This document shows positions 30,243 to 53,260 of a stretch of 53,849 nucleotides of DNA, in pieces. The translations under genes were made by a program, and so were the position numbers. Source of the stretch: Planctomycetota bacterium. GTDB lineage: Bacteria; Planctomycetota; JAMOSO01. The stretch lies in assembly GCA_027063065.1 (NCBI GenBank), contig JAMOSO010000023.1, forward strand, positions 1-53,849. Reading direction: 5' to 3'. How positions within the stretch are numbered: position 1 is the stretch's first letter; the number at the start of each line of letters is the position of its first letter. The notes below the pieces were generated by a model. That model saw nothing but the letters and a program-made list of their open reading frames with translations. It did no database searches and was not told the DNA's origin.

Positions 30243-32690
30243 GTGAGTAAAAGGATATTTGATATTTGTATTACATTAATAGCAGTTGTGATTTTATCGC
30301 TCCCGATGTTAATTATTGCTGTGCTAATTAAACTTAGCTCGGCAGGTAGTGTGATTTATCGCCAATCAAGAGTAGGCAAAGATGGTGTTTTGTTTACAAT
30401 TTATAAATTTAGAACAATGTATGATGGTGTCGAAGGGTATCCTTTGACTTTATTAAATGATGCACGCATTACATTTATAGGAGATTTTTTACGTAGACTA
30501 AATTTGGATAATTTACCGCAGTTATTTAATGTGTTGCAAGGCGATATGAGTTTAGTTGGACCAAGACCAATGATACCAGAGTTGGTAAAACATTATACAC
30601 AAGAGCAAAAACAATTATTATCTTTAAAGCCAGGCTTGGTTAGTTTGGGTAAATTATATTATCGTGATATTGAGATAGTGTCAGGTAGTTATGAAGATGT
30701 TTTAGCATTTCATATTAATATTTTGATTCCTAAAAGAAGTAGTTTTGATTTGGGTTATTTGCAAAAACAGTCTCTTTATTTTGACTTTAAGGTTTTGTTT
30801 TTAAGTTGTTTGACATCTGTTTTGTATCAGGGTGGCGGTAATGCACATTCATTGATTTTGCGAAATAGACGGTATTTTATTTTGGCTATTCAATTATTGA
30901 TAGCGGTATTTGTTTATTCAGTTGTGTATCATTTGCGTTACGACTGGGTCATGCCAAAGGAGAGATTATTTCGTTTATATCGAACCTTGCCCATTGCGGT
31001 TTTGCTACAGTTGATTTCGACAACTATTTATCGCCTAAATGAGGGGTATTGGCGCGAGACGGAGTTTTCGGATTTAATTAGATTATTAAAAGCTATGATA
31101 ACAACGGCATTGCTATTTGTTGGTGTTGAGTTTTTCTTTTTAGATAGAAGTTATCCAACTGGTGTCATTATTATTTATTCATTGTTTCTATTTGTTTTTT
31201 TGGCAGGCTTACGATATTCAGCGCGTATTATAAGGGAGGCTTTATATGATATATATCCCGAAGCTAAAAAGAAAATATTAATATACGGTGTCAATGAGGC
31301 CAGTTTGCAATTAATGAAATCAATTAAACGCAATCCAGATACGCCTTATCATGTGATTGCAATAATTTCATCTGGCAAAGATAAGCCAAAAGGTAATTGG
31401 CACGGTTGTCCAATTATTAGTTGTGGTGATAAATTAGATGAGTTTTTAGAAGAATACGAAGCTTCTTTTATCATTGATTGTTCTGAAGATAGAGGTGATT
31501 TAGGTGCTTTAATTAGGCAGGCTGCTGCGCATGGTTTAAAGGTAAAAACAATGCCATCATTAACAGAGGTTATCGAGGGTAAACAGCAACCTGGTTTTTT
31601 ACGTGATGTGCGTTGTGAAGATTTATTAATGCGTCGTGAAATAGAAGTGGATCAAGCTTTATTGTCAGATGTTTATAAAGATAAGGTGATTTTGATTACA
31701 GGTGGTGGAGGTTCTATTGGCTCAGAACTTGCACGTCAGATTAGCCGTTGGAAACCTAAGTGTCTTTATATTTTAGACAAGGATGAGACTTTACTTTATG
31801 AAGTAGAGATGGATTTTAGACATAAATATCATTTTTCAGATTTTGAGTTAATAATAGCTGATATTCAACAGCGTGAAAGATTATTTGATGTATTGCAAAG
31901 TGTCAGGCCAGATATTGTAATTCATGCTGCGGCATATAAACACGTGCCATTAATGGAAAAATTTCCACAACAAGCCTTTGCCAATAATGTGATTGGTTCG
32001 ACTAATTTATTAGATGCGTCACAAGCGGCTGGTGTGAAAAGATTTATTTTAATTTCTACTGATAAAGCGGTGGCTTCTACTAATGTAATGGGTGCTACAA
32101 AAGCTTTGACTGAACGGGTTTTATTTGAATGTTTTGCAACAAAGTATGATATGAAGTGTATGGCAGTGAGATTTGGCAATGTTTTGGGAAGTAGAGGATC
32201 GGTTATTCCGTTGTTTCAAAAGCAAATAGATTCTGGTGGTCCAATCACTGTTACTGATGAAAAAGTAGAGCGATATTTTATGTCTATTCCCGAGGCTGCA
32301 CAATTGGTTTTGCAAGCAGGAGCTATGGGCAAGGGTAGTGAATTATTTATTTTAAAAATGGGCGAGTCTGTAAAAATAGTTGAATTAGCCAAGCGTTTAA
32401 TTGAAATTAACGGATTGCGCCCCAATGTTGATATTCAAATAGAATATGCTGGTTTACGTCCCGGAGAAAAATTAATCGAAGAGCTGTTAACAGATGTAGA
32501 GGGTTCAAAAACAACATCTCACCATCAAATATTAGTGGTGGATAAATCTACTCCAATCATAAAAGAAGATTTAATTAGGATGATTGATTCTCGTCGTAAG
32601 GATATTTTAAATGCAAGTGCCAATGAAATAGTCAAAGAATTAAAGACATGGGTAAGTGATTATCGTCCTAATAGAGATGGGTATGTCTAG
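30243..32690 (+). CDS. Fusion of initiating sugar-phosphate transferase and CapD/FlaA1-like 4,6-dehydratase
   Basis: An 815-residue bifunctional-looking membrane protein. Residues 1-195 are a bacterial sugar transferase (WcaJ/PglC type): one re-entrant or membrane helix, YKFRTMYDG, and LPQLFNVLQGDMSLVGPRP. The usual catalytic dyad DE is D89-N90 here. Residues about 205-330 hold four membrane helices as in PglF/WbpM. Residues about 340-460 form a CoA-binding-like Rossmann domain. Residues about 478-790 are the NDP-sugar 4,6-dehydratase, with GGGGSIGSELA (487-497), HAAAYKHVPLME, STDKA (605-609) and NVMGATK (614-620). It starts with GTG, preceded by GAGG. Expected products are a UDP-4-keto-6-deoxy-HexNAc and an undecaprenyl-PP-linked first sugar. 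Confidence 0.9.
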   Translation: MSKRIFDICITLIAVVILSLPMLIIAVLIKLSSAGSVIYRQSRVGKDGVLFTIYKFRTMYDGVEGYPLTLLNDARITFIGDFLRRLNLDNLPQLFNVLQGDMSLVGPRPMIPELVKHYTQEQKQLLSLKPGLVSLGKLYYRDIEIVSGSYEDVLAFHINILIPKRSSFDLGYLQKQSLYFDFKVLFLSCLTSVLYQGGGNAHSLILRNRRYFILAIQLLIAVFVYSVVYHLRYDWVMPKERLFRLYRTLPIAVLLQLISTTIYRLNEGYWRETEFSDLIRLLKAMITTALLFVGVEFFFLDRSYPTGVIIIYSLFLFVFLAGLRYSARIIREALYDIYPEAKKKILIYGVNEASLQLMKSIKRNPDTPYHVIAIISSGKDKPKGNWHGCPIISCGDKLDEFLEEYEASFIIDCSEDRGDLGALIRQAAAHGLKVKTMPSLTEVIEGKQQPGFLRDVRCEDLLMRREIEVDQALLSDVYKDKVILITGGGGSIGSELARQISRWKPKCLYILDKDETLLYEVEMDFRHKYHFSDFELIIADIQQRERLFDVLQSVRPDIVIHAAAYKHVPLMEKFPQQAFANNVIGSTNLLDASQAAGVKRFILISTDKAVASTNVMGATKALTERVLFECFATKYDMKCMAVRFGNVLGSRGSVIPLFQKQIDSGGPITVTDEKVERYFMSIPEAAQLVLQAGAMGKGSELFILKMGESVKIVELAKRLIEINGLRPNVDIQIEYAGLRPGEKLIEELLTDVEGSKTTSHHQILVVDKSTPIIKEDLIRMIDSRRKDILNASANEIVKELKTWVSDYRPNRDGYV

Positions 32691-39223: not shown

Positions 39224-39921
39224 TGAAAATTTTAACTATAATACCAGCACGAGGAGGTTCTCAGGGGGTTAAAGATAAAAACATTATTGATGTATGCGGT
39301 AAGCCATTGATTGCTTATTCTATTGAACAAGCCAATATGTTAAAAGAAGCTGGCTTAGTTGATACGGTAATTGTATCAACAGATTCTAAAAAAATAGCTA
39401 ATGTATCAAAGGATTACGGTGCAGAAGTACCTTTTTTACGTCCTGATGAATTGTCTTCTAATACTGCTAAATCAATCGATTTTTATTTGCACGCATTAGA
39501 TTTTTATGCCAGTCAAAATATATATTTTGATGCTGTGTTATTATTGCAACCAACATCGCCACAAAGAAATTTTAATATTTTAAAAGATAGCATTAATATT
39601 TTTACCAGTGGTAAAGCCGATAGTTTATTAAGCGTATATCGTGAAGAATATATTAACGATTTAGTAATGTATCGAGGGGATGAAAAGTCTAAATGTTTGA
39701 CCCCAGTAAATATTAATCATAATAAAGGGGTTCGTCGTCAAAATCATGGTTCTATTTTTGTTCGTAACGGTTCAATTTATTTAACTAACACAAGTTATAT
39801 TTTAGATAAAAAAATGATTATATGCGATAATCCTTTATTTGTAGAAATGAAAAAAAGTGATTCTATTAATATTGATACTTATGAGGATTTAACTTTGTTA
39901 AGGAAAGTATTATGCGTATAG
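39223..39921 (+). CDS. neuA: Acylneuraminate cytidylyltransferase (CMP-nonulosonate synthetase)
   Basis: NeuA activates the nonulosonic acid with CTP. The 232-residue protein shows the nucleotidyltransferase start LTIIPARGGSQGVKDKNI, GKPLIAYSI, VIVSTDSKKIA, AEVPFLRPDELS, LLLQPTSPQRN and the C-terminal SINIDTYEDL. Its start shares one base with the neuC stop, and its end overlaps the next gene by 10 nt, completing a neuB-neuC-neuA unit. Confidence 0.93.
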   Translation: MKILTIIPARGGSQGVKDKNIIDVCGKPLIAYSIEQANMLKEAGLVDTVIVSTDSKKIANVSKDYGAEVPFLRPDELSSNTAKSIDFYLHALDFYASQNIYFDAVLLLQPTSPQRNFNILKDSINIFTSGKADSLLSVYREEYINDLVMYRGDEKSKCLTPVNINHNKGVRRQNHGSIFVRNGSIYLTNTSYILDKKMIICDNPLFVEMKKSDSINIDTYEDLTLLRKVLCV

Positions 39922-40847
39922 GCGTATTGGAGTCTGAAGGTTATTCTTCAAAAGCTATAGATGTTTACTCTAAATTTGCAAAGATAGATTTTTTTAAAAA
40001 CGGTAATATTATTGATTTTATTGCCGACAAGGATGTCTTGGTCGTAAGACTAAAATATAAGTTAGATTCCAAAGTTTTGTTTTGTGCTAAAAATTTAAAA
40101 TTTATTTGTTCTCCAACGACAGGCCTAAATCATATTGATTTAGATTATACATCTGCCAATAAAATTGAGGTAATATCTTTAAAAAATGAAATAGCTTTTT
40201 TAAATACGATAAGAGCTACTCCAGAGCATAGTTTTGGTTTGTTGCTGTCATTGTTAAGAAATTATAAAAAAGCTTTTTTAAATACAGAAAACACTAATTG
40301 GGATAGAAATTTATATATAGGTACAGAATTGTATGCTAAAAAAGTTGCCATTGTAGGATTGGGTCGGGTCGGTAGTTTGTTGGCCAATTACTGTAGTGCT
40401 TTTGGGGCTAAGGTTAAATATTTTGATATTGATGCAAAAAAAACAAGTGCGGTTGCAACGCGTACTCCAAATTTGCAACAACTATTACATAACGCAGAAA
40501 TTGTATTTTTAACAGTTTCTTATAGCAGGAATAATCATCAATTTTTTAATGCAGAGATGATAGATTGTTTAGAAAATTGTTATTTTATCAATACTGCCAG
40601 GGCTGAATTGTTAGACGAAGAATATTTACTTGCAAAAGCTAAAAATAATTTTTTTGCGGGATTGGCTATTGATGTAATACAAGATGAAACTAATGAAAAT
40701 AACAGGTTAAAAGATTTTTTAGAATTAACTAAGAAAAATAATATTATAATTACTCCTCATATAGCAGGTGCAACATGGGAGTCAATGCGTAGAACAGAAG
40801 AATTTATAGCAGACAAATTAAATCAAAGGTTAAGGAGCTGTATATGA
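39912..40847 (+). CDS. NAD-dependent D-2-hydroxyacid dehydrogenase family protein
   Basis: A 311-residue dehydrogenase. The substrate domain (1-105 and 280-311) flanks the NAD domain, with VAIVGLGRVGS as GxGxxG and the acidic residue after strand 2 in KYFDID, which fits NAD use. The catalytic triad looks intact: R in NTARAELL, E in the IQDET segment, and H in TPHIAGAT. The closest well-known relatives are phosphoglycerate and glycerate dehydrogenases. Its place between neuA and a sulfotransferase suggests it makes or consumes a hydroxyacid used as a glycan substituent. AAGGAAAG precedes the ATG. Confidence 0.85.
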   Translation: MRIGVLESEGYSSKAIDVYSKFAKIDFFKNGNIIDFIADKDVLVVRLKYKLDSKVLFCAKNLKFICSPTTGLNHIDLDYTSANKIEVISLKNEIAFLNTIRATPEHSFGLLLSLLRNYKKAFLNTENTNWDRNLYIGTELYAKKVAIVGLGRVGSLLANYCSAFGAKVKYFDIDAKKTSAVATRTPNLQQLLHNAEIVFLTVSYSRNNHQFFNAEMIDCLENCYFINTARAELLDEEYLLAKAKNNFFAGLAIDVIQDETNENNRLKDFLELTKKNNIIITPHIAGATWESMRRTEEFIADKLNQRLRSCI

Positions 40848-41578
40848 TTGCTGTATATGGTAAGGTTAAAAGAAAAATACAAGAAAATTATTTTCCATTA
40901 GTTCAAGATGGTAATTCTTATCATGTGCGTTCTAAAAAGTTAATTAAGTCTTTTACATCGGACGATAATTTCCCATATTTGGTTAGTTTTCCAAGAACTG
41001 GCAGTCATTGGCTAAGGCAGTTAATGGAAATAGTGTTCGAAATCCCGTCATTAACCAGAATATTTTTTGAACCCAAAACGGATAAATTTACCTGTTATCA
41101 TGTACATGATGTTGGTTTAAACGAAAAAGCTAAAAGAGTGATTTATTTATACAGAAATCCAGTGGATACTATTTACTCGACCATGCAGTATCATAAAGAA
41201 GATATGAACGATAAAGTTAGGATTTCTTATTATACAGCATTATACGGTCAACATCTGGCAAAATGGTTAATCTTAGAGGACTTTTCAGAAGATAAATTAA
41301 TATTAACTTATGAGGGTTTAAAAGATGATATTTTTGGGCAATTCAAAAAGATAGCTAGTTTTTTAAATTTAAAAAGTGATGAAAGTAGGATAAAATTAGC
41401 ACAACAGAAGGTTTCAAAAAAATCACTTAGTGGGAAGGGTCTTTCTGATAAGCAAATTGTTAATATTTCTGAGGAGTACCAACAAATGAAAGAAGATTTT
41501 GTGGATAAATATTCCGATTTTATTTTGGAGCTTACTTTGGCTCAACATCCAGATATGATAAATATGGGGTTTAAATGA
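40844..41578 (+). CDS. PAPS-dependent sulfotransferase domain protein
   Basis: A 244-residue cytosolic-type sulfotransferase. The 5'-phosphosulfate loop is SFPRTGSHWL (48-57, equivalent to TYPKSGTTW), and the 3'-phosphate site is YRNPVDTIYS (103-112), with R104 and S112 as the expected contacts. VIYLYRNPVDT and the later LTYEGLKDD segment, followed by a helix with FLNLK, follow the Sulfotransfer_1 layout. It probably sulfates a sugar hydroxyl. AGGAG precedes the start; it overlaps the neighbours on both sides by 4 nt. No PAPS-synthesis genes are in the window. Confidence 0.87.
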   Translation: MIAVYGKVKRKIQENYFPLVQDGNSYHVRSKKLIKSFTSDDNFPYLVSFPRTGSHWLRQLMEIVFEIPSLTRIFFEPKTDKFTCYHVHDVGLNEKAKRVIYLYRNPVDTIYSTMQYHKEDMNDKVRISYYTALYGQHLAKWLILEDFSEDKLILTYEGLKDDIFGQFKKIASFLNLKSDESRIKLAQQKVSKKSLSGKGLSDKQIVNISEEYQQMKEDFVDKYSDFILELTLAQHPDMINMGFK

Positions 41579-42348
41579 AAGTTGTTATTTTAGCTGGTGG
41601 TTTTGGTACACGATTAAGCGAAGAAACTTCTACGGTACCAAAACCAATGGTTGAAATTGGTGGTAAGCCTATTATTTGGCATATTATGAAAAGTTATAGC
41701 ATATATGGCTTTAACGAGTTTATTATCTTGTTAGGTTATAAGGGCTATATGATTAAAGAATATTTTGCTAATTATTTTTTACATCAAAGCGATGTTACTA
41801 TAGATTTAGCTAATAATAATATGCAGGTGCATGACAATAGTAGTGAACCTTGGAAGGTTACTCTTTTAGAAACAGGTATCGATACTCAAACTGGTGGACG
41901 CATTTTAAAGGCAAAACCATATATAGGCGAAGAAAGTTTTATGCTTACTTATGGGGATGGTGTTTCAGATATTAATATTGTTGAGTTAATTAAATTTCAT
42001 AAAGCGCATGGAAAAATTGCTACGGTTAGTTCTATACAGCCAGATGGTAGATTTGGCACGATTTCTGCGAAAGACGGAGGTAGAATTGAATCTTTTAAAG
42101 AAAAACCAGTGGAAACTAATTTTTGGATCAATGCTGGTTTTTTTGTGTGCCATCCACAAATTTTTGATTATTTTGACAATTCTGATCAGCTTGTATTTGA
42201 AAAATCACCCATAGAAAATCTGGTTAAAGATGGTGAACTTTTTGCTTATAAACATACAGGTTTTTGGAAATGTATGGATACACTTAGAGATAAAACCAGT
42301 TTATGTGCTTTATGGGATTCAGGTAAAGCGCCGTGGAAAAAATGGTAA
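41575..42348 (+). CDS. rfbF: Glucose-1-phosphate cytidylyltransferase
   Basis: RfbF/DdhA makes CDP-glucose from glucose-1-phosphate and CTP, the entry to CDP-3,6-dideoxy and CDP-6-deoxy sugars. The 257-residue protein shows VILAGGFGTRLSEET, VPKPMVEIGGKPIIWHIM, the YGFNEFIILLGYKG segment, LTYGDGVSDI, GRFG, WINAGFFV and FWKCMDTLRDK, all characteristic of RfbF rather than the RmlA/UGPase branches. Its ATG overlaps the sulfotransferase stop as ATGA, and its end overlaps rfbG by 7 nt. Confidence 0.96.
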   Translation: MKVVILAGGFGTRLSEETSTVPKPMVEIGGKPIIWHIMKSYSIYGFNEFIILLGYKGYMIKEYFANYFLHQSDVTIDLANNNMQVHDNSSEPWKVTLLETGIDTQTGGRILKAKPYIGEESFMLTYGDGVSDINIVELIKFHKAHGKIATVSSIQPDGRFGTISAKDGGRIESFKEKPVETNFWINAGFFVCHPQIFDYFDNSDQLVFEKSPIENLVKDGELFAYKHTGFWKCMDTLRDKTSLCALWDSGKAPWKKW

Positions 42349-43442
42349 ATAATTTAGTAGATTTAAATCTGTTTGGTGGTGCCTATAAAAACACTCGTGT
42401 TTTAGTTACAGGAGATACAGGTTTTAAGGGCGCTTGGCTCGTTAAGTGGCTTGAAATGATGGGGGCAGATATATGTGGTTATGCACAAGACTATATATCT
42501 TTACCCAATCATCATAAATTGTTAAATCTAAAATATCATACTATTATAGCGGATGTTAATGATTTTGATTTTTTGTTAAAAACTATCGATGAATTTAAAC
42601 CACAAATTATTTTTCATTTAGCTGCACAAGCATTAGTAAGACAGTCTTATAAACAGCCTTTAACAACTTTTCAAACAAATATTATGGGTACAGCCAATAT
42701 TTTAGAGGCTTCTAGGCTTAGTAATTGTGTTAAGGCTGTCGTCAATATAACAAGTGATAAATGTTATCAAAACAATGAATGGGTTTGGGGTTATAAGGAA
42801 ACAGACGCTATGGGAGGCTTTGATCCTTATAGCGCTTCAAAGGGCTGTTCAGAATTAATAACATCATCTTATCGTAATGCTTTTGGTTCGGATGAATTTT
42901 TAATAGCTTCATGCAGGGCTGGAAATGTAATAGGTGGTGGGGACTGGGCAGAAGATAGATTGATTCCAGATATGATTAAAGCTTTGCAGTCTGGTAAAAC
43001 CACAATTATTAGAAGCCCACAATCTACTAGACCTTGGCAACATGTATTAGAACCATTAAGTGGTTATTTATTGGTTGGGCAAAAATTATTAGCAAGTCAA
43101 AAAAACTTTGCCGAAGGTTGGAATTTTGGACCATCTAGTTTGTCGCAAATTTCAGTGGCTAAGATTTCATCAATGCTTAAAGACTTATGGAATTTTAAAA
43201 TTGAATTTAAACCAGATTGCGATGCTCCACATGAGGCTTGCTTATTAAAATTGGATTGCGCCAAAGCCAATACTTTTTTGCATTGGTATCCTATTTGGGA
43301 TATTAACAAAACTTTGTCTGCTACGGTGCAATGGTATAAAACATATATGCAAGAAAATAAGATACTAACAGCTCAACAAATAGCTGATTATGTTGCAGAT
43401 GCTCGCAATTTAAAAATGACTTGGTGTTGCGATGAAGCTTAA
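42342..43442 (+). CDS. rfbG: CDP-glucose 4,6-dehydratase
   Basis: RfbG/DdhB converts CDP-glucose to CDP-4-keto-6-deoxyglucose. The 366-residue extended SDR has VLVTGDTGFKGAWL (Rossmann loop), FHLAAQALVRQSY, ITSDKCY, the YSASKGCSEL active-site motif, CRAGNVIGGGDWAEDR and QSTRPWQHVLEPLSGYL, which is the specific CDP-glucose dehydratase pattern. I chose the ATG at 42342, with GGA just upstream, over the GTG at 42333. It overlaps both neighbours by 7-11 nt. Confidence 0.96.
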   Translation: MVNNLVDLNLFGGAYKNTRVLVTGDTGFKGAWLVKWLEMMGADICGYAQDYISLPNHHKLLNLKYHTIIADVNDFDFLLKTIDEFKPQIIFHLAAQALVRQSYKQPLTTFQTNIMGTANILEASRLSNCVKAVVNITSDKCYQNNEWVWGYKETDAMGGFDPYSASKGCSELITSSYRNAFGSDEFLIASCRAGNVIGGGDWAEDRLIPDMIKALQSGKTTIIRSPQSTRPWQHVLEPLSGYLLVGQKLLASQKNFAEGWNFGPSSLSQISVAKISSMLKDLWNFKIEFKPDCDAPHEACLLKLDCAKANTFLHWYPIWDINKTLSATVQWYKTYMQENKILTAQQIADYVADARNLKMTWCCDEA

Positions 43443-43977
43443 TAAAACATTTTTGGAAGATGTTTTTATTTTAGAACCAGATTATTTTACAGATGAGCGA
43501 GGCGGATTTGCTAGATTGTATTGTCAACAAGAATTGTCTAAGTTTTATCCAGGACTAGAAATCAAGCAAATTAATCATTCTATTAATAGATTAGCGGGTA
43601 CAATTAGGGGGATGCATTTTCAATATCCACCCAACGATGAAATTAAATTTGTTAAATGTACCAAGGGCGCTGTATTAGATGTAGTAGTAGATATAAGAAA
43701 GGGTTCTAAAACATTTTTAAAATATTTGGCAGTAGAATTAACATCAAACAACAATAAAATGCTATGTATACCCAAGGGCGTGGCGCATGGGTTTCAAACG
43801 TTGCAAGACGATACTGAATTACTGTATTTACATTCGGCATTTTATACGCCAAATAATGAAGGTGGTTTAAACTTTGGTGATTCTAAATTAAATATTGATT
43901 GGGTTTTGCCTGTGCAAAATATTTCAGAACGTGATTTAAATTTTAAGATGTTAGAAGATTCTTTTAAGGGGATATAA
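43432..43977 (+). CDS. RmlC-like NDP-4-keto-6-deoxysugar 3,5-epimerase
   Basis: A 181-residue cupin of the dTDP-4-dehydrorhamnose 3,5-epimerase family. Marks are FTDERGGFARLY, NHSINRLAGTIRGMHFQYPP with the catalytic histidine, VLDVVVDIRKGS, IPKGVAHGFQTL and the late LNIDW segment. In this neighbourhood the substrate is most likely CDP-4-keto-6-deoxyglucose rather than dTDP sugar, and the epimerised 4-keto sugar would suit the C-methyltransferase downstream. It overlaps rfbG by 11 nt and the next ATG by one base (TAATG). Confidence 0.9.
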   Translation: MKLNKTFLEDVFILEPDYFTDERGGFARLYCQQELSKFYPGLEIKQINHSINRLAGTIRGMHFQYPPNDEIKFVKCTKGAVLDVVVDIRKGSKTFLKYLAVELTSNNNKMLCIPKGVAHGFQTLQDDTELLYLHSAFYTPNNEGGLNFGDSKLNIDWVLPVQNISERDLNFKMLEDSFKGI

Positions 43978-45194
43978 TGAGGTGTAGGTTTTGCAATAAT
44001 GACTTAAATTATGTTTTTGCAGATTTAAAAGAAGCACCTTTGTCTAATTCTTATTTAGATAAAGCAAGTTTATTGAAACAAGAAGAAAAGCTACCTTTAA
44101 AGATTTTTGTGTGTCAAAAATGTTGGTTGGTGCAAGTTGATGAAATGAAAAAGACTGAGGAAATTTTTGATAATTCTTATGCATATTTTAGTTCTATGTC
44201 ACAGTCGTGGTTGCAACATAGTCAAGAATATGTCTCGATGATAATAGATTATTTAAACCTAAATCAAGACTCGTTGGTTACAGAAATAGCCTCCAATGAC
44301 GGTTATTTATTACAATACATGCAACAAGCAGGTATACCGTGTTTTGGTATTGAGCCTACTTCAAGTACAGCCAATGTAGCTAAACAAAAAGGTATAAAAG
44401 TTGTTGAAGATTTTTTTGGTACACGTTTAGCTAATCAATTATTAGAGAGTGGCAAAGCAAGTGATTTGATTTTGGGAAATAATGTTTTAGCACACGTTCC
44501 TAATATTAAAGATTTTGTGCAAGGTTTAAAATTGTTATTAAAACCACAAGGCACTATAACTTTAGAGTTTCCTCATTTATTAAATTTAATCAAATATAAT
44601 CAATTTGATACTATATATCACGAGCATTTCTCTTATTTGTCTATATTAGCCGTTACACAAATATTTAATGCCTGTGGTTTGGATATATATAATGTCGAAA
44701 AATTGTCTACTCACGGTGGTTCTGTACGTATTTATGTATGTCATAAGAAAATCTTTGCACAAAATCCAAATGTTGCAGATATTATAGAAGAAGAAAAAAA
44801 CTTTGGTTTAAATACTTTGCAAACCTATTTAAAATTTCAAAATAAAATTGAAAAAGTAAAAAAGGATTTTTGCGATTTTTTAAATTTGCATAAAGATAAA
44901 AAAATAATTGCGTATGGAGCAGCAGCAAAGGGTAATACCTTGTTAAATTATTGTGAAGTTAAAGCAGATATCATTGATTTTGTTGTTGATAAAGCACCAT
45001 CTAAAATTAATAAATATTTGCCTGGTTCACATATCCCAATCGTAGAAGAAGAACAAATTTTAAAATTAAAACCAGATTATATTATTATTTTGCCATGGAA
45101 TATTTTTGACGAAATAACAGAACAATTAACTTATGCAAAACAATGGGGTGCTAAATTTGTATGTGCAATCCCCGAGATTAAAATTGAAGGATAA
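43977..45194 (+). CDS. NDP-4-ketosugar C-methyltransferase (NovU/TylC3/TcaB9 type)
   Basis: A 405-residue three-part SAM enzyme. An N-terminal zinc-binding domain has C3, C6, C46 and C49. The SAM-binding Rossmann core (about 85-250) has VTEIASNDGYLLQ, GNNVLAHVPN and TLEFPH, and the catalytic-type motif YHEHFSYLS (214-222) matches the Y-x-E-H motif of sugar C-3 methyltransferases. A second Rossmann-like C-terminal domain (about 308-400) has IIAYGAAAKGNTLLNY, FVVDKAP and YIIILPWN. Known relatives methylate C3 of NDP-4-keto-6-deoxyhexoses. With rfbF, rfbG and the epimerase it completes a likely CDP-3-C-methyl-6-deoxyhexose route. Note that the second domain reappears in four neighbours. Confidence 0.88.
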   Translation: MRCRFCNNDLNYVFADLKEAPLSNSYLDKASLLKQEEKLPLKIFVCQKCWLVQVDEMKKTEEIFDNSYAYFSSMSQSWLQHSQEYVSMIIDYLNLNQDSLVTEIASNDGYLLQYMQQAGIPCFGIEPTSSTANVAKQKGIKVVEDFFGTRLANQLLESGKASDLILGNNVLAHVPNIKDFVQGLKLLLKPQGTITLEFPHLLNLIKYNQFDTIYHEHFSYLSILAVTQIFNACGLDIYNVEKLSTHGGSVRIYVCHKKIFAQNPNVADIIEEEKNFGLNTLQTYLKFQNKIEKVKKDFCDFLNLHKDKKIIAYGAAAKGNTLLNYCEVKADIIDFVVDKAPSKINKYLPGSHIPIVEEEQILKLKPDYIIILPWNIFDEITEQLTYAKQWGAKFVCAIPEIKIEG

Positions 45195-45197
45195 ATT

Positions 45198-46235
45198 ATG
45201 ACAGCAAAGTATGAACCACGAATCACTTTAAAAGGTAGAACAAAGTTAGAGACGGTTATCCCTTTAGCAACCCCATTTATTATATTTGTAGACCCTTCTA
45301 GCAGTTGTAATTTTAAATGCACATTTTGCCCGACTGGCAATCCAGAAAGTTTAAAAAATACGGGCAGAGTTAATAAAATTTTAAATTTCGATTTATATAA
45401 AAAAATAGTGGATGATTTAGATCAATTTGCAGATCCTATTAAAGTTTTAAGATTGTACAAAGATGGTGAGCCGTTTTTAAACCCGCATTTAGCAGATATG
45501 GTTAAGTATGCAAAAAACTCTGGCAGAGTAGGCTTTATTGATACTACTACAAATGGTTCATTATTAACCCCAGAAAAAGTAATGCCTGTAATCGAGGCGG
45601 GTATCAATCAAATTAATATATCTTTAGACGGTATGAGTGATGAACAGTTTTTAGAATTTACACGTACTAAAGTAAATTTTAAGAAGTTTATTAAAAATAT
45701 AGAATATCTATATAAAAACAAGGGAGAGTGCAAAATATTAATTAAAACAGTCAATGAATTATTGAACGATAAAACACGTCAATTGTTTTTGGATACCTTT
45801 TCACCAATTGTCGATAAAATTTTTATCGAAAACATAGCTCCTTGTTGGCCTGATTTTGAATTAGAAAATTTAATGGATGTGGAAATTACAAAAGGCATTT
45901 ATGGGCAAGACATTAAAGAAATAGATGTATGCCCTTATGTTTTTTATCAGATTTCTATTAATGCAGACGGTAAAGCTAGTTTATGTTTTTTAGATTGGGG
46001 ACATAATTATATAGTTGGAGACACTAATACGCAAAGTTTAAAAGAAATTTGGCATTCAGATGAAATATATAATTATCAATATAAATTTCTTAAAGGTGAA
46101 CGTAAAAATGTGGAATTTTGTAAAGACTGTAGCCAATTATCACATTGTTTGCCCGATAATATAGATCCTTTTAAAGAAGACTTATTAAAAAAATTAATAG
46201 CTTCTAAACAAATGAGGCAAAACAATGAAAGCTAA
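45198..46235 (+). CDS. Radical SAM/SPASM protein, tandem paralog 1
   Basis: A 345-residue radical SAM enzyme with the [4Fe-4S] motif C37-x3-C41-x2-C44 (CNFKCTFC) and TTTNGSLL and NISLDG barrel strands. A C-terminal SPASM-type cysteine set follows: DVCPY, SLCFLDW, then FCKDCSQLSHC near residues 315-325, next to the GDTNTQSLKEIW element. SPASM proteins bind extra Fe-S clusters and modify peptides, sugars or cofactors. GAAGGA precedes the ATG. The downstream gene is a clear paralog and overlaps it by 11 nt. No RiPP precursor peptide is seen nearby, so a sugar or nucleotide-sugar substrate is more likely here. Confidence 0.88.
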   Translation: MTAKYEPRITLKGRTKLETVIPLATPFIIFVDPSSSCNFKCTFCPTGNPESLKNTGRVNKILNFDLYKKIVDDLDQFADPIKVLRLYKDGEPFLNPHLADMVKYAKNSGRVGFIDTTTNGSLLTPEKVMPVIEAGINQINISLDGMSDEQFLEFTRTKVNFKKFIKNIEYLYKNKGECKILIKTVNELLNDKTRQLFLDTFSPIVDKIFIENIAPCWPDFELENLMDVEITKGIYGQDIKEIDVCPYVFYQISINADGKASLCFLDWGHNYIVGDTNTQSLKEIWHSDEIYNYQYKFLKGERKNVEFCKDCSQLSHCLPDNIDPFKEDLLKKLIASKQMRQNNES

Positions 46236-47247
46236 AAAAGAATCTAAATTAAATTTAAAAGACAGGGTAGCATTGCAAGATGTTATCCCCATATCTACAC
46301 CATATTTGCTTTATTTAGATCCGTCTAGTGCATGTAATTTTCAATGTAAATTTTGTCCATCAGGACATAGCAATCTAGTTAAAGGTGCCAATTATAAGCG
46401 TTCTATTTTAGATTTTAATTTATTTAAAAAGATTATTGATTCTTTGGCAGAGTTTGATGAACCGATAAAAGTGATGCGGATGAATAAGATTGGTGAGCCA
46501 CTTTTAAATAAAGATATTGTCAAAATGATAAAGTACGCTAAAGATAGTGGTTATGTAAAGTATATTGATTTTGCTACTAACGGTTCTTTATTTGAGCAAT
46601 CGCTTATGGCTGATTTGGTTTCCGTTGGTTTAGATAGGTTAAATATATCTATAGAGGGCGTAGATAGTGCTCAATATAAAAACACTTGCAATGTGCAAAT
46701 AGACTTTGATGATTTAGTCGATAAAATTAAGTGGCTTTATGCGCATCGTCAAAACTGTGAAATTACAATTAAAATACCAAAAAATTATTTATCTAACCAT
46801 GATGAAGAAAAATTTTACAAATTATTTGGTGATTGTTGTGATAAAATTTTTGTAGAAAATTTATCGGCAATTTGGCCAGAATTTGATATGCAAGAATATG
46901 CAGGCATTCAAACCGCCGAAGAAAGTCAATATGGTCAAGAGTTAAAAGCCAAGGATGTGTGTACTTTTATATTTTATTCAATGGCTATAAATGCTGATGG
47001 TACTGTGAGTGCCTGCTGTCCAGATTGGGCGCAAAAATTAAAAGTAGGCGACACTAAAACTCAAAGCTTAAAAGAAATTTGGAACTCAACAGAGTTTAAT
47101 AACTTGCGGTTACAACACTTAAAATCACAACGTACTTTAAATACTGTGTGTAATGCCTGTGGACATATAAAATATTGTCAGGTAGATGATATCGATTTAT
47201 ATAAAGATAAATTATTAAATAAATTGGAACAACACATCAATGGATAA
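46225..47247 (+). CDS. Radical SAM/SPASM protein, tandem paralog 2
   Basis: A 340-residue paralog of the preceding protein, with co-linear sequence and the Fe-S cysteines at the same positions C37, C41 and C44 (CNFQCKFC). The shared start is LKDRVALQDVIPISTPYLL, and the shared end has GDTKTQSLKEIW. Its SPASM region keeps a double cysteine, ACCPDW, where paralog 1 has LCFLDW, then VCNACGHIKYC. The pair probably arose by tandem duplication and then specialised. GAGG precedes the start; its 3' end overlaps the methyltransferase gene by 8 nt. Confidence 0.88.
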   Translation: MKAKKESKLNLKDRVALQDVIPISTPYLLYLDPSSACNFQCKFCPSGHSNLVKGANYKRSILDFNLFKKIIDSLAEFDEPIKVMRMNKIGEPLLNKDIVKMIKYAKDSGYVKYIDFATNGSLFEQSLMADLVSVGLDRLNISIEGVDSAQYKNTCNVQIDFDDLVDKIKWLYAHRQNCEITIKIPKNYLSNHDEEKFYKLFGDCCDKIFVENLSAIWPEFDMQEYAGIQTAEESQYGQELKAKDVCTFIFYSMAINADGTVSACCPDWAQKLKVGDTKTQSLKEIWNSTEFNNLRLQHLKSQRTLNTVCNACGHIKYCQVDDIDLYKDKLLNKLEQHING

Positions 47248-48403
47248 TCAAAATAATAATTGTCATGCGTGTGGAATGCCTAAAACTCATTTATTTAATT
47301 GGTCATATTCTGGATTTGGAGATTCAATTTTTAATTATAAGGCCGAGTTTTATGACTGCAAACATTGTGGTTTAATATGTATTAATAATATTGATGATAT
47401 GATTTTGTCAAAATTTTATGCGGAAGAATGTAATTATTTTGCCAATGCACATTTTGATATTAATGCGAAAAAGAATATAGAAAAGTTTCAATATTATAAA
47501 AATTTATTGGTTGAAGTAGGTGTCAATAATTTACCAATTACAGATATAGGTTGTGGTCGAGGTGGCTTTATTACTTGGTTGATGCAAAACAATTGGCAGT
47601 CAAAGTGTTGTGGTGTAGATGTTGATGTAAAAAGTTTACCAGACAATACTAAAAACAGTCCAAAATTTATTAATGGTTTTGCTAAGGATTTACCTTTTGA
47701 GAATAACTCTCAAAAAGTTTTGACATACTTTCACGTCTTTGAACATATTGTAGATACAGATGCAATTTTACAAGAGGCATATAGGGTTCTTGACGAAGAT
47801 GGTATTATTGTTATCGAAGTGCCAGATGCACAAAATTATAGTAAAGAAAGTATTAATGGTGGTTTTTGGGTTAGCATTAGAGAGCATATATATCATTTTA
47901 CATTTAAATCTTTGGTTGAGTTGTTAAATAAAAATGGGTTTTCAATTTTAACAATTAAACAAGATAGATTGCCAACTCCAGAATTTGATTATCAATCTTT
48001 AATTGTTGTAGCATCAAAGCAAAAACAACAAAAGTATATTTTTAAAAATATTAAAATTGATAATTCTGGTTTTTTTATATCATCCCAAGAGGATATAAAA
48101 AATAGTGCCAATAAAATTGTTGATAGGTCTAAACAGTATGATTCGGTTGTCTTTTGGGGTGTTTCTAATCAATTATTAAGTATTTTGCCTATTTTAGAAC
48201 ATAAAATAAACTTTACACTTTGCGATGCCAGTGAGCAAAAACAAGCATTAAAATATAAAAACAAGTTAATTTTATCACCTAATGATATTGATTACTCTAA
48301 TTCTTTGCTTGTGGTATCTTCTTATTTGCATCGTCAGGCAATTAAATCTGCAGCAATTAAAATGGGTTGGGATGCTGGTTCTATAATAAACTTAGTGGAG
48401 TAA
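47240..48403 (+). CDS. Zinc-ribbon class I methyltransferase with C-terminal Rossmann-like domain
   Basis: A 387-residue protein. An N-terminal zinc ribbon has C8, C11, C40 and C43. The SAM core has ITDIGCGRGGFITWL (about 94-110), VFEHIVDTDAILQEAYRVL and IVIEVPDAQNY, typical Methyltransf_23/11. The C-terminal domain (about 295-385) starts VVFWGVSNQLLSILPIL and has a Rossmann-like rhythm. The three-part plan parallels the C-methyltransferase at 43977, but the core and the active-site region (IREHIYHFTF) are more distant, so the reaction may be O- or C-methylation. It is embedded between the radical SAM pair and the FkbM gene. Confidence 0.83.
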   Translation: MDNQNNNCHACGMPKTHLFNWSYSGFGDSIFNYKAEFYDCKHCGLICINNIDDMILSKFYAEECNYFANAHFDINAKKNIEKFQYYKNLLVEVGVNNLPITDIGCGRGGFITWLMQNNWQSKCCGVDVDVKSLPDNTKNSPKFINGFAKDLPFENNSQKVLTYFHVFEHIVDTDAILQEAYRVLDEDGIIVIEVPDAQNYSKESINGGFWVSIREHIYHFTFKSLVELLNKNGFSILTIKQDRLPTPEFDYQSLIVVASKQKQQKYIFKNIKIDNSGFFISSQEDIKNSANKIVDRSKQYDSVVFWGVSNQLLSILPILEHKINFTLCDASEQKQALKYKNKLILSPNDIDYSNSLLVVSSYLHRQAIKSAAIKMGWDAGSIINLVE

Positions 48404-48408
48404 ATAAA

Positions 48409-49518
48409 ATGGGCAATATAGATTATACATCGGTAAAAATAGACGAAATAGTAAAATCATTAGCTCCAAAAGCTAAATCTTTAGAAGATGATTTTGCCAA
48501 TGGGGTTGGCATATACGGTGCAGGTTTTTTGGGTACTTGGGCAGTAGATTATTTGCGTTCAATAGATGCAAAAATTAATTGCTTTATTGATAGAGATATC
48601 AATAAAAGTGACACATTTATTAAAAATATTAAAGTTATCACTCCAGATAAATTAAAGGAAAGTAGTGTTAAATCCATTTTTATTGCATCTCGTCATGTTG
48701 TCAAAGATGTAATAGATGATTTGGGTCAAGATAATTACAATATGATTTCCTTTGATGGTTATTTTATAGTAAAAAATTATCAACGTCTTTGTAAAATTAG
48801 AGATGGTCTATTGGAAGATGTAAAGTCTGTTGAGACATTTAATGCTATTTTATATTCAATGTTAACTAGTTCTTTGCAGAGTTGTTATGAAGTAATGGAA
48901 AAAGATATGTATTTTTCATTGCCTGAATTTAGTGGTACATTTGAAGAAACTTTTGTAGATGTGGGAGCTTTTGTTGGCGATTCGGTAGAAAGATTTATAT
49001 GGGAAAACTTAGGTACTTTTAGACATATACATGCTTTTGAACCAGGTAAACGACAATTCTTTGCTATGCAAAAAAGAGTAGAACGTCTTTCGTTAGAGTG
49101 GGCGTTTGATATGGATAAAGTCTCTTTAAATAATATTGGTTTATCTTCGCAAGAATCACAAATGAATTGTACTTTTGAGGATGACTTTCCTATACGCCAT
49201 GGATTAGTAGCTAGTGATGTTCAAGATGCAAATAAAAGTCAAAGCCTTGCTACTGTTTTAAGTTTAGATTCTTATTTAGGTGATAAAAAGGCAACATTTT
49301 TAAAAATAGATATTGAAGGTATGGAGATGGATTTTTTACGAGGAGCAGTAAAAACCATTACTGTCAATAAACCTAAGATAGCTATTTGCGTATATCATTA
49401 TCCAAGCGATTTATATGAAATTGCTGAATTTATTAAAGATTTAGTACCAGAATATAAATTTAAAATTCGTCAACATGCACCTATTTTTGGTGATTTTGTA
49501 TTATATTGTTATATATAG
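48409..49518 (+). CDS. FkbM methyltransferase with N-terminal Rossmann-like domain
   Basis: A 369-residue protein. The N-terminal part (about 24-110) is Rossmann-like: VGIYGAGFLGTWAVDYL, NCFIDRDINKSDTF, KVITPDKLKES, SIFIASRHVVKDVID. The C-terminal FkbM core has EETFVDVGAFVGDSVERF, HIHAFEPGKRQF, NNIGLSSQES and FLKIDIEGMEMDFLRGA. The N-terminal domain is equivalent in character to the C-terminal domains of the neighbouring methyltransferases, here placed in front. GGAG precedes the ATG at 48409, 5 bp after the previous stop; I rejected the longer start inside the previous gene. Confidence 0.86.
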   Translation: MGNIDYTSVKIDEIVKSLAPKAKSLEDDFANGVGIYGAGFLGTWAVDYLRSIDAKINCFIDRDINKSDTFIKNIKVITPDKLKESSVKSIFIASRHVVKDVIDDLGQDNYNMISFDGYFIVKNYQRLCKIRDGLLEDVKSVETFNAILYSMLTSSLQSCYEVMEKDMYFSLPEFSGTFEETFVDVGAFVGDSVERFIWENLGTFRHIHAFEPGKRQFFAMQKRVERLSLEWAFDMDKVSLNNIGLSSQESQMNCTFEDDFPIRHGLVASDVQDANKSQSLATVLSLDSYLGDKKATFLKIDIEGMEMDFLRGAVKTITVNKPKIAICVYHYPSDLYEIAEFIKDLVPEYKFKIRQHAPIFGDFVLYCYI

Positions 49519-49526
49519 GTATAGTT

Positions 49527-50684
49527 TTGTTTGATTATTGCCCTGTTTGTAAATCTAAAAGCTTTAAAGCGTTAGGCAAGTTAAATTTTGCTTTACCTGA
49601 CACTTATCCAATTGCTTCAAAACTTACTGTGTTACAATGTAATAAATGCGGTTTTGTAGGCAGTGATAGCTTAGCTAATAAAGATGATTATAATAATTAT
49701 TATAGACAGATAACTTATAGCTCTAACTATACAGCTTTTGATTTAGATGATGATGAGATACAATATTTGGATGAAACAATAGCAATAATACAAAAGCATA
49801 TTAATACTGATGATAAAATATTAGATATAGGTTGTGGTCTCTCGCATATTTTATCTGGTCTCAAAAATAATAAATATAAAAATTTATACGCATTAGATAT
49901 GTCAAAAGAGTGTGTTAATTACTTTAAAGACACCTATCAGATTGATGCCATAGTTGGGGCAGTAGATAATATCCCATGTAATATAAAGCCTGATTTTATT
50001 ATATTATCACATATTGTAGAGCATTTATTTGAGCTAGATAAACAATTACAATATTTGAAAGAACAATTATTAGAAGGTAAAAAAATATTTGTTGAAGTGC
50101 CAGACACGTCCAGATTTGAGGAGTTTGCTACTAACTTAGGTGAGCTTAGTTTTTTTTATTATACTCATTTATTGCATTTTGATGAGTTTCATTTGCAAAA
50201 TGTTTTTGAAGCGAATGGTTTTACCATGTTAGAAAGTGGCAAGCGAGTAAGGGTAGAAAAGTGTGTAAAAATCCCATCTATTTGGGCTGTTTTTAGCAAT
50301 GTTGATAAATATGTATTTAAGTGTAATTTTAATTTGGCAAATAAAATAGGCGTATGGTTTGATGATTTTGACTCTTATATATTTGATGATTTAGATAATT
50401 TGGTAAAAACTCAAAAACCTGTATATGTTTGGGGTATGGGTATGCATGCCCATTTTTTATTGGGTATGACTAAATTAAAAGATTGCAATATTGTGGCACT
50501 TTTAGATAAAAACCCAGATTTTAAAGGTACACATATTTGTGGTATGGAAATATTATCCAGCGATTTATTATATAATGCAACTGTAGATGATTGTGTTTTT
50601 ATTTGTGCGCAAGTTAACCAGTCTAGTATGCGATTTTATTTAACAGAAACAGTGGGTTTTAAGGGTGAAATTATAACCATATAA
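49527..50684 (+). CDS. Zinc-ribbon class I methyltransferase with C-terminal Rossmann-like domain
   Basis: About 385 residues. The N-terminal CPVC and CNKCG pairs form a zinc ribbon, then comes the SAM core KILDIGCGLSHILSGL, YALDMSKE, FIILSHIVEHLFELDKQ and IFVEVPDTS. The C-terminal domain begins VYVWGMGMHAHFLLGM and continues VALLDKNPDFKG, CGMEILSSDLL, VFICAQVN. I propose the TTG at 49527 as start: AGG sits 7 nt upstream, and no ATG occurs near the N-terminal cysteines. A further TTG at 49506 would overlap the FkbM gene by 13 nt. The plan is the same as the 47240 protein, so they are likely distant paralogs. Confidence 0.82.
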   Translation: MFDYCPVCKSKSFKALGKLNFALPDTYPIASKLTVLQCNKCGFVGSDSLANKDDYNNYYRQITYSSNYTAFDLDDDEIQYLDETIAIIQKHINTDDKILDIGCGLSHILSGLKNNKYKNLYALDMSKECVNYFKDTYQIDAIVGAVDNIPCNIKPDFIILSHIVEHLFELDKQLQYLKEQLLEGKKIFVEVPDTSRFEEFATNLGELSFFYYTHLLHFDEFHLQNVFEANGFTMLESGKRVRVEKCVKIPSIWAVFSNVDKYVFKCNFNLANKIGVWFDDFDSYIFDDLDNLVKTQKPVYVWGMGMHAHFLLGMTKLKDCNIVALLDKNPDFKGTHICGMEILSSDLLYNATVDDCVFICAQVNQSSMRFYLTETVGFKGEIITI

Positions 50685-50700
50685 TTATAAGAGGATTATT

Positions 50701-51432
50701 ATGAATGAAATACAACAGTTTAAACAAGAAGTAGCTCAAAATATTGAGTCTTTAGGTAAGGATAAAAAAAACAAAGAAAAGAGTATCGAATGGCTATGTC
50801 AAGTTAGTCAATATAATTACGCCTATAATTTTACATGGATGGGACGGCCAATTATTCAGGCTCCACAAGATTTGGTTGCCTTACAAGAAATAATTTATGA
50901 AGTTCAACCAGATTTAATTATTGAAACAGGGATTGCTCATGGTGGTTCACTCATATTTTATGCGTCTATGTTAGAGCTTATTGGCAAGGGAGAAGTTTTA
51001 GGTTTGGATATTGATATACGTAATCATAATTATGAAGAAATTATTAATCATCCGATGTACAAGCGAATAACCATGATAGAAGGTTCTAGCATAGATGAAA
51101 AAATAGCCGAAAAAGTTAAAACTTTTGCCAAGGGTAAAAAGAAAATATTAGTTAGTCTTGATTCTAATCATACCCATTCACATGTTTTAAAAGAATTACA
51201 GCTATATGCAGATTTGGTGTCTGTTGGTAGCTATTGTGTAGTGTTTGATACTTTGATTGAAGATATTCCAAAAGAGTTTTATGATGATAGAGAATGGGAG
51301 CCTAACAATAACCCAAAAACTGCTGTATGGGAGTTTTTAAAAGGGAATAAAAATTTTAAAATAGACAAGTCCATTGATTATAAAATTCAAATATCTGCTG
51401 CGCCAGATGGTTATTTAAAAAGGATACACTAG
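50701..51432 (+). CDS. CmcI-type (cephalosporin-hydroxylase family) SAM methyltransferase
   Basis: A 243-residue Rossmann-fold protein of the CmcI family, whose members in polysaccharide loci are thought to be sugar O-methyltransferases. Evidence: GRPIIQAPQDLVALQEIIYE, LIIETGIAHGGSLIFYASML (SAM loop), EVLGLDIDIR, and DSNHTHSHVLKELQLYADLVSVG with metal-binding-type D/H residues, then VVFDT. A good GAGG precedes the ATG. It is the last plus-strand gene before the convergent radical SAM gene, whose stop is 25 bp away. The antibiotic name of the family should not be read as function here. Confidence 0.85.
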   Translation: MNEIQQFKQEVAQNIESLGKDKKNKEKSIEWLCQVSQYNYAYNFTWMGRPIIQAPQDLVALQEIIYEVQPDLIIETGIAHGGSLIFYASMLELIGKGEVLGLDIDIRNHNYEEIINHPMYKRITMIEGSSIDEKIAEKVKTFAKGKKKILVSLDSNHTHSHVLKELQLYADLVSVGSYCVVFDTLIEDIPKEFYDDREWEPNNNPKTAVWEFLKGNKNFKIDKSIDYKIQISAAPDGYLKRIH

Positions 51433-51457
51433 CAATACTTTATCTGTAATAGGCTTA

Positions 51458-53260
51458 TTAATTAAATAGGTCTATTATAGATATAATTTTAATATTTGGA
51501 TAACTACTTTCTATATTAGATTTGATAGTAGAATAAAAAACTGGCACTAGGACTATAATAGTATCGATATTCTTTTGATTAATAACTGATGGCGCATAAA
51601 CTTTTTTGTTATTAATATGCATTAATTGTTTGTCAGTAGAAAGATCAATTAAATAAATATCTTCGTTATTTTTAACACTATTAGATGTGGTTAAAAATTC
51701 CATTGAATAATCAGCCATTCCCCAAAGGGCAATTTTATTGCCATTTGCAATTAATTTATCTAAATGCGTATCAATTGAGTTTATAATCGATTTTGGAACT
51801 GTCGTTGCCAGCTTTTCTTTACAGTTATGACATGTTACATAATTTAAAGAAAATAGGCTTACTGATTGCCATGTGTTTTTTTGATTGCAGTATTGACAAT
51901 TTCCTTGTAAATCGCATTTGCCATTATTAATGGAAAGCAAAGTTGCATTATGTATTTTGGCATTTTCTTGTAATGGTAGCAAAGTTATTTTAGTTACTAA
52001 CTCGCCCATTTCTTTGTTGGACATTTTTGAAACATTTATTGGTGGGCAACCTTCTTTTAAAAATGTAACAGGATTTTTTATAATATTATTTTTAAGCGCA
52101 TATTTATATAAGCCAGTACCAGGATAAACTTTTATCATTTTCATAAATAGCCCATATCTTTGATTTTTTTTCCACCATTCAATGGTGTTATTTGCAGTTT
52201 GCGACGTTTCTGCAATATCACCAAATATAAAATTGCCTACTACGGGTATTTGTGCAGAATGTATTTTTTCTAGGGCGTTTTCAATTTGTTCGATAGTAAC
52301 GCGTTTGTTCATACTTTTAAGAACTGATGGATCAGCACTTTCAACACCTATGCCAATTGAAGCACAATTAGCATTTTTTAAAAGTTGTAATACCTGATCG
52401 TTAATTCCATCTACTCTAAATGATGCGTTCCATGGAATATTGTACGCTTTTATTCTACGGCAAAATTCATCTACTCTGTCAATGGATTGTGAAAACAGCT
52501 CATCAGATATATACAAAAAGCCAACATTATATTTTGATGTTAATAAATCAATTTCTTTAAAAACTTCATCCATAGAGCGTTGGCGGTATGTTCTGCCAGA
52601 AGTGTGAAAACAGAAAGTGCAGGCAAAAGGGCAAGAGCGACTAGTGATAATCATTCCAGCACGATTGCAATTTAAGCCGTTAGTGCCTATGTTAGATACC
52701 TCTAAAAATTCTTTAAAATTAAAACCATCATAATCTGGCCATGGAATTTCATCTATTTTTTTTATGGCACGTCGGCTTTTGGTTATTTCAAAATCATTTT
52801 TATTTTTAAATATTATTCCATTGACCTCAGTAAAATTTTTGGCTGCATTTATATACTGACATAATTCAACGGTGGTTTCTTCGCCTTCTCCAATAACGCC
52901 ATAATCCACTTCTAGAGCTAGCATAGCTGGTATTGGATCACCAGCAATTATGCCACCGCCACAAATAGAAATAATCTTGTTATTTGTTTTTTTGGCTATA
53001 TTAAAAATTTGTTTTATTTCGCTATATTGTGGGGACATTCCACCAGATAAAACCACGTCTATTTTTTTTTTAATAATAGTTTTTTGAAGAGTTGCCATAG
53101 GATTTGTATGATGATTTAAATTTAAAGTTTCAACATTTAATCCAGCCTTTTTCATCGCAGAAGATATATATAATATTCCTAGCGGAAGAATATAGCTTTC
53201 GTTGGCATTGCTTCTCATAAGAGGCATTACAATAAGGTGATTGTTAGTTTCTTTGGGCAT
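51458..53260 (-). CDS. Radical SAM protein with B12-binding-like N-terminus, zinc ribbon and C-terminal Rossmann-like domain
   Basis: A 600-residue multidomain enzyme. Residues about 8-165 form a B12-binding-like Rossmann domain (PLGILYISSAMKKAG, VVLSGGMSPQYSEIK, ICGGG, DYGVIGEGEETTVEL), without the DxHxxG motif that binds cobalamin in base-off form. Residues about 195-400 form the radical SAM barrel, with C210-x3-C214-x2-C217 (CPFACTFC). Residues about 449-480 carry cysteines C449, C455, C458, C477 and C480, a zinc-ribbon-like insert. Residues about 507-595 form a Rossmann-like domain starting IALWGMADYSMEFL. That tail resembles those of the neighbouring methyltransferases. AAGGA precedes the ATG. 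A C10/T10-type A run (53062-53071 on the plus strand as T10) encodes a lysine triplet. Confidence 0.85.
   Translation of the reverse strand: MPKETNNHLIVMPLMRSNANESYILPLGILYISSAMKKAGLNVETLNLNHHTNPMATLQKTIIKKKIDVVLSGGMSPQYSEIKQIFNIAKKTNNKIISICGGGIIAGDPIPAMLALEVDYGVIGEGEETTVELCQYINAAKNFTEVNGIIFKNKNDFEITKSRRAIKKIDEIPWPDYDGFNFKEFLEVSNIGTNGLNCNRAGMIITSRSCPFACTFCFHTSGRTYRQRSMDEVFKEIDLLTSKYNVGFLYISDELFSQSIDRVDEFCRRIKAYNIPWNASFRVDGINDQVLQLLKNANCASIGIGVESADPSVLKSMNKRVTIEQIENALEKIHSAQIPVVGNFIFGDIAETSQTANNTIEWWKKNQRYGLFMKMIKVYPGTGLYKYALKNNIIKNPVTFLKEGCPPINVSKMSNKEMGELVTKITLLPLQENAKIHNATLLSINNGKCDLQGNCQYCNQKNTWQSVSLFSLNYVTCHNCKEKLATTVPKSIINSIDTHLDKLIANGNKIALWGMADYSMEFLTTSNSVKNNEDIYLIDLSTDKQLMHINNKKVYAPSVINQKNIDTIIVLVPVFYSTIKSNIESSYPNIKIISIIDLFN

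Follow-up and report, generated by a model that had tools for sequence, protein, structure and literature searches.

The closest described counterparts of the domain studied here are the C-terminal domains of sugar C-3'-methyltransferases (PF08484), for which structures such as TcaB9 (3ndi), KijD1 (5t67) and MtmC (4rv9) are available. In TcaB9, this C-terminal domain reportedly holds the dTDP-sugar, and SAM is said to bind in the middle domain. PDB entries 5t67 and 4e33 are, by their titles, complexes with dTDP-sugars. A second case is an FkbM methyltransferase with an N-terminal Rossmann domain (PDB 2py6); we know of no reported function for this N-terminal domain. Third, the N-terminal domain of PglD, NeuD and VioB (PF17836) and the UDP-sugar dehydrogenase fragment 3nkl are combined with acetyltransferase or dehydratase-type cores. 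The Rossmann domain of Rex is also related in fold, but it is combined with a DNA-binding partner and serves NAD sensing. As for gene clusters, flagellin glycosylation islands contain FkbM and other methyltransferases, and radical SAM enzymes are not mentioned there (PMC4875605). Thus, the domain itself and its fusion to FkbM, as structures, are already known, and the proposal of a wholly undescribed system in the first-pass annotation is not supported. What we did not find described in the literature searched is the fusion to a B12-radical SAM enzyme with a zinc ribbon of its own, and the sharing of one domain over many cores within single clusters. This search covered the domain with radical SAM or FkbM proteins and TcaB9, KijD1 and MtmC, and, being limited largely to papers available without subscription, is weak evidence of novelty.

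The window, that is, the whole stretch of 53,849 nucleotides analyzed here, comes from a Planctomycetota bacterium (contig JAMOSO010000023.1). Eight genes lie between 43977 and 53260: A, two SPASM-type radical SAM genes, B, C, D, a CmcI-like gene and E (Table 1). On the 5' side of 43977, there are genes of the NeuB, UDP-GlcNAc 2-epimerase and cytidylyltransferase families, a 2-hydroxyacid dehydrogenase, a sulfotransferase, and a trio of NTP transferase, 4,6-dehydratase and 3,5-epimerase. Farther upstream, a GT10 glycosyltransferase, an ABC transporter, an initiating sugar transferase and an O-antigen ligase family protein are encoded. The locus is of the surface polysaccharide type. Gene C more likely starts at the ATG at 48409 than at the start of its ORF. 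Because gene E is on the opposite strand and convergent with its neighbor, it is not in one operon with A-D.

Table 1. Genes and domain segments of the locus (positions in the window).
Feature	Position	Strand	Evidence
Nucleotide-sugar genes: NTP transferase (RfbF-like), 4,6-dehydratase (RfbG-like), dTDP-4-dehydrorhamnose 3,5-epimerase family	41575-43977	+	PF00483, PF16363, PF00908
A: sugar C-methyltransferase (Zn ribbon, SAM core, C-terminal domain)	43977-45194	+	PF08484, PF08421, PF13489
A, shared domain	44871-45173	+	Iterated profile and profile free of window sequences
Two SPASM-type radical SAM genes, without shared domain	45198-47247	+	PF04055, PF13186
B: zinc-ribbon SAM methyltransferase, shared domain C-terminal	47240-48403	+	PF13489
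B, shared domain	48107-48397	+	42 bits (iterated profile); 7.5e-9 (profile free of window sequences)
C: FkbM methyltransferase, shared domain N-terminal	48409-49518 (ORF 48367-49518)	+	PF05050, 46.2 bits (gathering score 22.7)
C, shared domain	48481-48768	+	60.6 bits (iterated profile)
D: zinc-ribbon SAM methyltransferase, shared domain C-terminal	49506-50684	+	PF13489
D, shared domain	50385-50681	+	75 bits (iterated profile; top match of the window); 7e-19 (profile free of window sequences)
CmcI / rhamnosyl O-methyltransferase family gene, without shared domain	50701-51432	+	PF04989, 304 bits
E: B12-binding radical SAM enzyme, C-terminal zinc ribbon and shared domain	51458-53260	-	PF02310, 54.8 bits; PF04055, 77.7 bits
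E, shared domain	51476-51769	-	57 bits (iterated profile); predicted fold
E, zinc ribbon CxxC...CxxC (residues 455-480)	51821-51898	-	Four Cys invariant in 12 family members

The first-pass annotation claimed, from five quoted motifs, that five proteins of this region share a similar domain. The motifs are present as stated in the ORFs of A-E. In pairwise comparison of the five segments, E-D (z 9.6) and E-B (z 6.3) are the sole pairs clear of shuffles, and the segments of A and C score against the Rossmann domain of a 2-hydroxyacid dehydrogenase as well as against the other segments. An iterated profile, seeded with the five segments and run for three rounds over 1133 ORFs, matched 64 of them, including 5 of the 49 ORFs in the window, which are precisely A-E. 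No ordinary SDR epimerase/dehydratase is among these 64 matches, and the domain profile matched neither the two SPASM genes, the CmcI-like gene nor another FkbM gene at 53390. When the profile was made free of window sequences, A-E still ranked on top with E-values from 7e-19 to 7.5e-9, and the next window ORF had 0.007. Elsewhere in the 2.13-Mb genome, there are only two further matches, both weak: Rex (5e-6) and an oxidoreductase of the Gfo/Idh type (4e-4).

Class profiles were also built from FkbM N-termini, radical SAM C-termini and methyltransferase C-termini, all from other genomes, and these detect one another. The methyltransferase profile recovers all five copies of the window (E-value at most 5.2e-5), and the FkbM and radical SAM profiles recover B, C and D but give weak or no matches to A or E. 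In hhalign, the probabilities between classes are 99% (radical SAM-methyltransferase), 98% (FkbM-methyltransferase) and 95% (FkbM-radical SAM), against 3.5% (radical SAM), 1.1% (methyltransferase) and 50% (FkbM) for an SDR Rossmann control, and below 1% for SAM cores and B12 domains. With single sequences, A-FkbM reaches 14% and E-FkbM 0.6%, and these two links are transitive via the methyltransferase profile. Searched against PDB, the domain profile finds mostly nucleotide-sugar enzymes: 3nkl (4e-9), residues 315-394 of MtmC (1e-8) and VioB (0.001), besides Rex (3e-7). All five segments are homologous copies of a single Rossmann-like domain, which is also the C-terminal domain of sugar C-3'-methyltransferases, and the profile-profile check proposed in the first-pass annotation came out in favor of its claim.

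Protein A is a full member of the known family, with 194.8 bits to PF08484 (gathering score, 23.5) and 231 bits to MtmC 4rv9 over 3-397, so that its copy is the known C-terminal half of the family, as had been recognized. B and D score below the gathering score of PF08484 (B, no match; D, 11.6 bits) and are not counted as members, but they are related to the C-methyltransferases and have the same three-part architecture of zinc ribbon, SAM core and shared domain. Since A, B and D share this architecture, their common domain is partly a matter of paralogy. The view that the catalytic partners all differ is thus right in that the cores are chemically distinct, and has to be corrected in that A, B and D are one architecture and that the zinc ribbon of E was overlooked. 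Matches to the N-terminal domain of PglD, NeuD and VioB are weak but repeated; C and D score 19.2 and 19.7 bits to the NeuD/PglD/VioB family (TIGR03570), below its cut-off of 160.8. The shared domain is also related to the domains that PglD/NeuD and UDP-sugar 4,6-dehydratases have at their N-termini.

Predicted structures lead in the same direction. The C-terminus of E (residues 421-600, modeled by AlphaFold2 with 11 relatives) has a pLDDT of 90.4, and its top matches in Foldseek are 3nkl and MtmC. In VIA-align, 13 sugar C-3'-methyltransferase entries (KijD1, MtmC, TcaB9) lead with Z 11.7-13.1, mostly over 112-116 residues at an rmsd of 2.4-2.8, followed by 2g6t (Z 8.9) and Rex (Z 8.1). The model of C (pLDDT 79) aligns with 2py6 over the full length at Z 23.8; its N-terminal domain resembles 3nkl most closely (Z 11.7) and also Rex (Z 10.6). 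In predicted fold, the domain of E is a C-methyltransferase C-terminal domain, and that of C, as modeled, is a sister inside the same superfamily. The domain was once described as permuted on FkbM. The strand order in C is unchanged, and the position is N-terminal as in 2py6; permutation is ruled out, and C represents an N-terminal fusion with a structural precedent. C differs from 2py6 in that its gene cluster encodes further proteins carrying the domain.

Protein E has the C-terminal fold of the C-methyltransferases but on a B12-radical SAM core. Both the B12-binding and the radical SAM domains score above cut-off, and the CxxxCxxC motif is present (SRSCPFACTFC). Among NCBIfam equivalogs (HpnJ, BchE, AprD4 and others), E misses all cut-offs, the best being HpnJ with 134.9 against 577.6. 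The zinc ribbon directly N-terminal to the shared domain is conserved in the E family. Relatives of E in its own phylum align mainly in the B12/radical SAM core. Among 294 sampled genomes of the phylum, no other one has the ribbon-plus-domain form; the remaining matches cover the domain alone and are mostly ORFs of about 400 aa. This limitation to one genome among those sampled suggests horizontal acquisition.

Outside the phylum, B12-radical SAM proteins with both zinc ribbon and shared domain occur in beta-proteobacteria, desulfobacteria and Synergistales. In a genome scan, relatives of the C-terminus of E were found in a beta-proteobacterium (43%), Accumulibacter, Desulfobacteraceae, Desulfarculales, Desulfuromonadales and Synergistales. 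In Deltaproteobacteria, a plasmid codes for a protein related to E along its length (32%, residues 4-594), for a relative of D and for several radical SAM proteins that bear the domain N-terminally, and the Synergistales locus has a relative of E and an FkbM protein 32% identical to C. In the Azospirillum version, TPR repeats separate the zinc ribbon from the shared domain. At seven loci of ribbon-plus-domain relatives of E, the domain is found on 29 of the 89 other ORFs, a count in which some loci are mutually related and some carriers are paralogues of E; at 67 loci of B12-radical SAM relatives without the domain, only 2 of 818 ORFs carry it. Owing to these relationships, the p-value of the contrast is optimistic. 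The cores joined to the domain in the seven loci are FkbM, SGNH/GDSL, SDR, radical SAM, GT2 plus radical SAM, methyltransferase and, by a weak match, HAD-like. The expectation that fusions to radical SAM and methyltransferase cores would be co-localized in other genomes was borne out, as carriers with radical SAM and FkbM cores are strongly co-localized in other phyla. In the phylum of the window, the domain occurs in 118 of 294 genomes (E-value at most 1e-6; the count includes some Rex-like and other relatives), frequently on proteins about 400 aa long. Of 30 genomes with several copies, 25 have at least two inside 25 kb. Viral contigs scanned with B, C and D gave no matches.

Neighbors of E relatives include nucleotide-sugar genes, which fits an anchoring role: genes for an NTP transferase, NeuB and an epimerase at one locus (L037) and a DegT aminotransferase at two others (L036 and L041). 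At these latter two, GT2 glycosyltransferase, radical SAM and shared domain are joined in one protein each of about 820-840 aa (L036, 4327-6783; L041, 13027-15534). Some other arrangements were also seen. A Desulfuromonadales contig (L040, 469-17652) has the domain on 10 of 12 ORFs, with B12-radical SAM, other radical SAM, FkbM and SGNH cores. On a cockroach-gut deltaproteobacterial plasmid (L033, 16134-21258 and 32126-33364), radical SAM proteins, mostly in tandem, carry the domain at the N-terminus. In a Brachyspira hyodysenteriae plasmid (L035, 2848-4026), a relative of D adjoins a radical SAM/SPASM gene, and dTDP-rhamnose genes are in the cluster.

What does the domain do on such different cores? 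Among 46 copies, only the terminal Asp of strand 2 is invariant; the loop Gly is conserved in at least 90% of them, and both suggest that a nucleotide pocket has been preserved. The third Gly of GxGxxG is missing in the E family, B, D and most methyltransferase copies and is present in nearly all FkbM copies, so that the classes may bind different ligands. Homology with the C-methyltransferases makes substrate recognition the most likely role of the domain. From the TcaB9-type role, the PglD/VioB and UDP-sugar dehydrogenase relatives and the conserved Asp and Gly, we infer that the putative substrates of B, C, D and E are nucleotide-activated sugars. The best overall explanation, to which we give a probability of roughly 0.6, is that tailoring enzymes of different chemistry have reused one domain that anchors nucleotide sugars. 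The shared domain would hold the nucleotide part of the activated sugar, and the attached core (SAM methyltransferase, FkbM methyltransferase or B12-radical SAM) would act on the sugar ring. The cluster would make CDP- or similarly linked sugars through the RfbF/RfbG/epimerase-like and NeuB/NeuC/NeuA-like genes, and these would undergo C- and O-methylation as well as a radical step ahead of transfer to the surface glycan; one carrier or nucleotide sugar may serve all five enzymes. The substrate of A is likely the product of the upstream RfbF/RfbG/epimerase-like genes, in what is presumably a CDP-glucose pathway. Points against anchoring are that Rex, a sensor of NAD(H), is also a relative, that the third Gly depends on the class, that A and E are linked to FkbM only transitively, and that E is not in the same operon.

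The domain could instead mediate protein-protein contacts, by which the tailoring enzymes would form assemblies or pass a common intermediate along. Copies are indeed clustered, with five within 7 kb here besides L040 and the multi-copy genomes above, and they are found on differing cores at either protein end. However, glycan enzymes cluster anyway, several enzymes of this cluster are without the domain, and its most conserved positions, the Gly loop and the strand-2 Asp, are typical of a nucleotide pocket, so that we consider docking unlikely. It is quite unlikely that the domain binds NAD(P) for a redox step or redox sensing, like Rex and the dehydrogenase Rossmann domains: Rex is among the nearest folds of both models and the FkbM copies keep GxGxxG, but E, B and D have lost the third Gly, the copy of E fits C-methyltransferase C-terminal domains clearly better than Rex, and no second redox catalytic motif was seen. 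That the likeness is generic Rossmann character without specific relationship is very improbable, because the pairwise scores of A and C, no higher than to an unrelated dehydrogenase, are contradicted by class profiles that detect each other and pass over SDR enzymes of the same loci, by hhalign, and by a fold match specific to the C-methyltransferases.

Beyond nucleotide-sugar anchoring in this cluster, the mobile domain may tentatively be seen as part of a modular toolkit for methyltransferase, FkbM, B12- and SPASM-type radical SAM, SDR, SGNH, HAD-like and GT2 cores. If so, radical and methyl chemistry would be done on nucleotide-activated sugars, and members of the E family would carry out cobalamin-dependent radical SAM reactions directly on NDP- or CMP-sugars. 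This would give a candidate substrate class to an unassigned B12-radical SAM family and to many "hypothetical" or FkbM proteins of surface-glycan loci, account for otherwise unannotated terminal domains of the carriers, and make the domain a sequence handle for finding more tailoring enzymes.

Two further genes of the window can be mentioned. The 2-hydroxyacid dehydrogenase family gene (39912-40847, plus strand) is located between the cytidylyltransferase and sulfotransferase genes in the nonulosonate part. At 30243-32687 (plus strand), an 815-aa protein combines an initiating bacterial sugar transferase (PF02397) with a CoA_binding_3 / Polysacc_synt_2 4,6-dehydratase, functions that are normally on two proteins.
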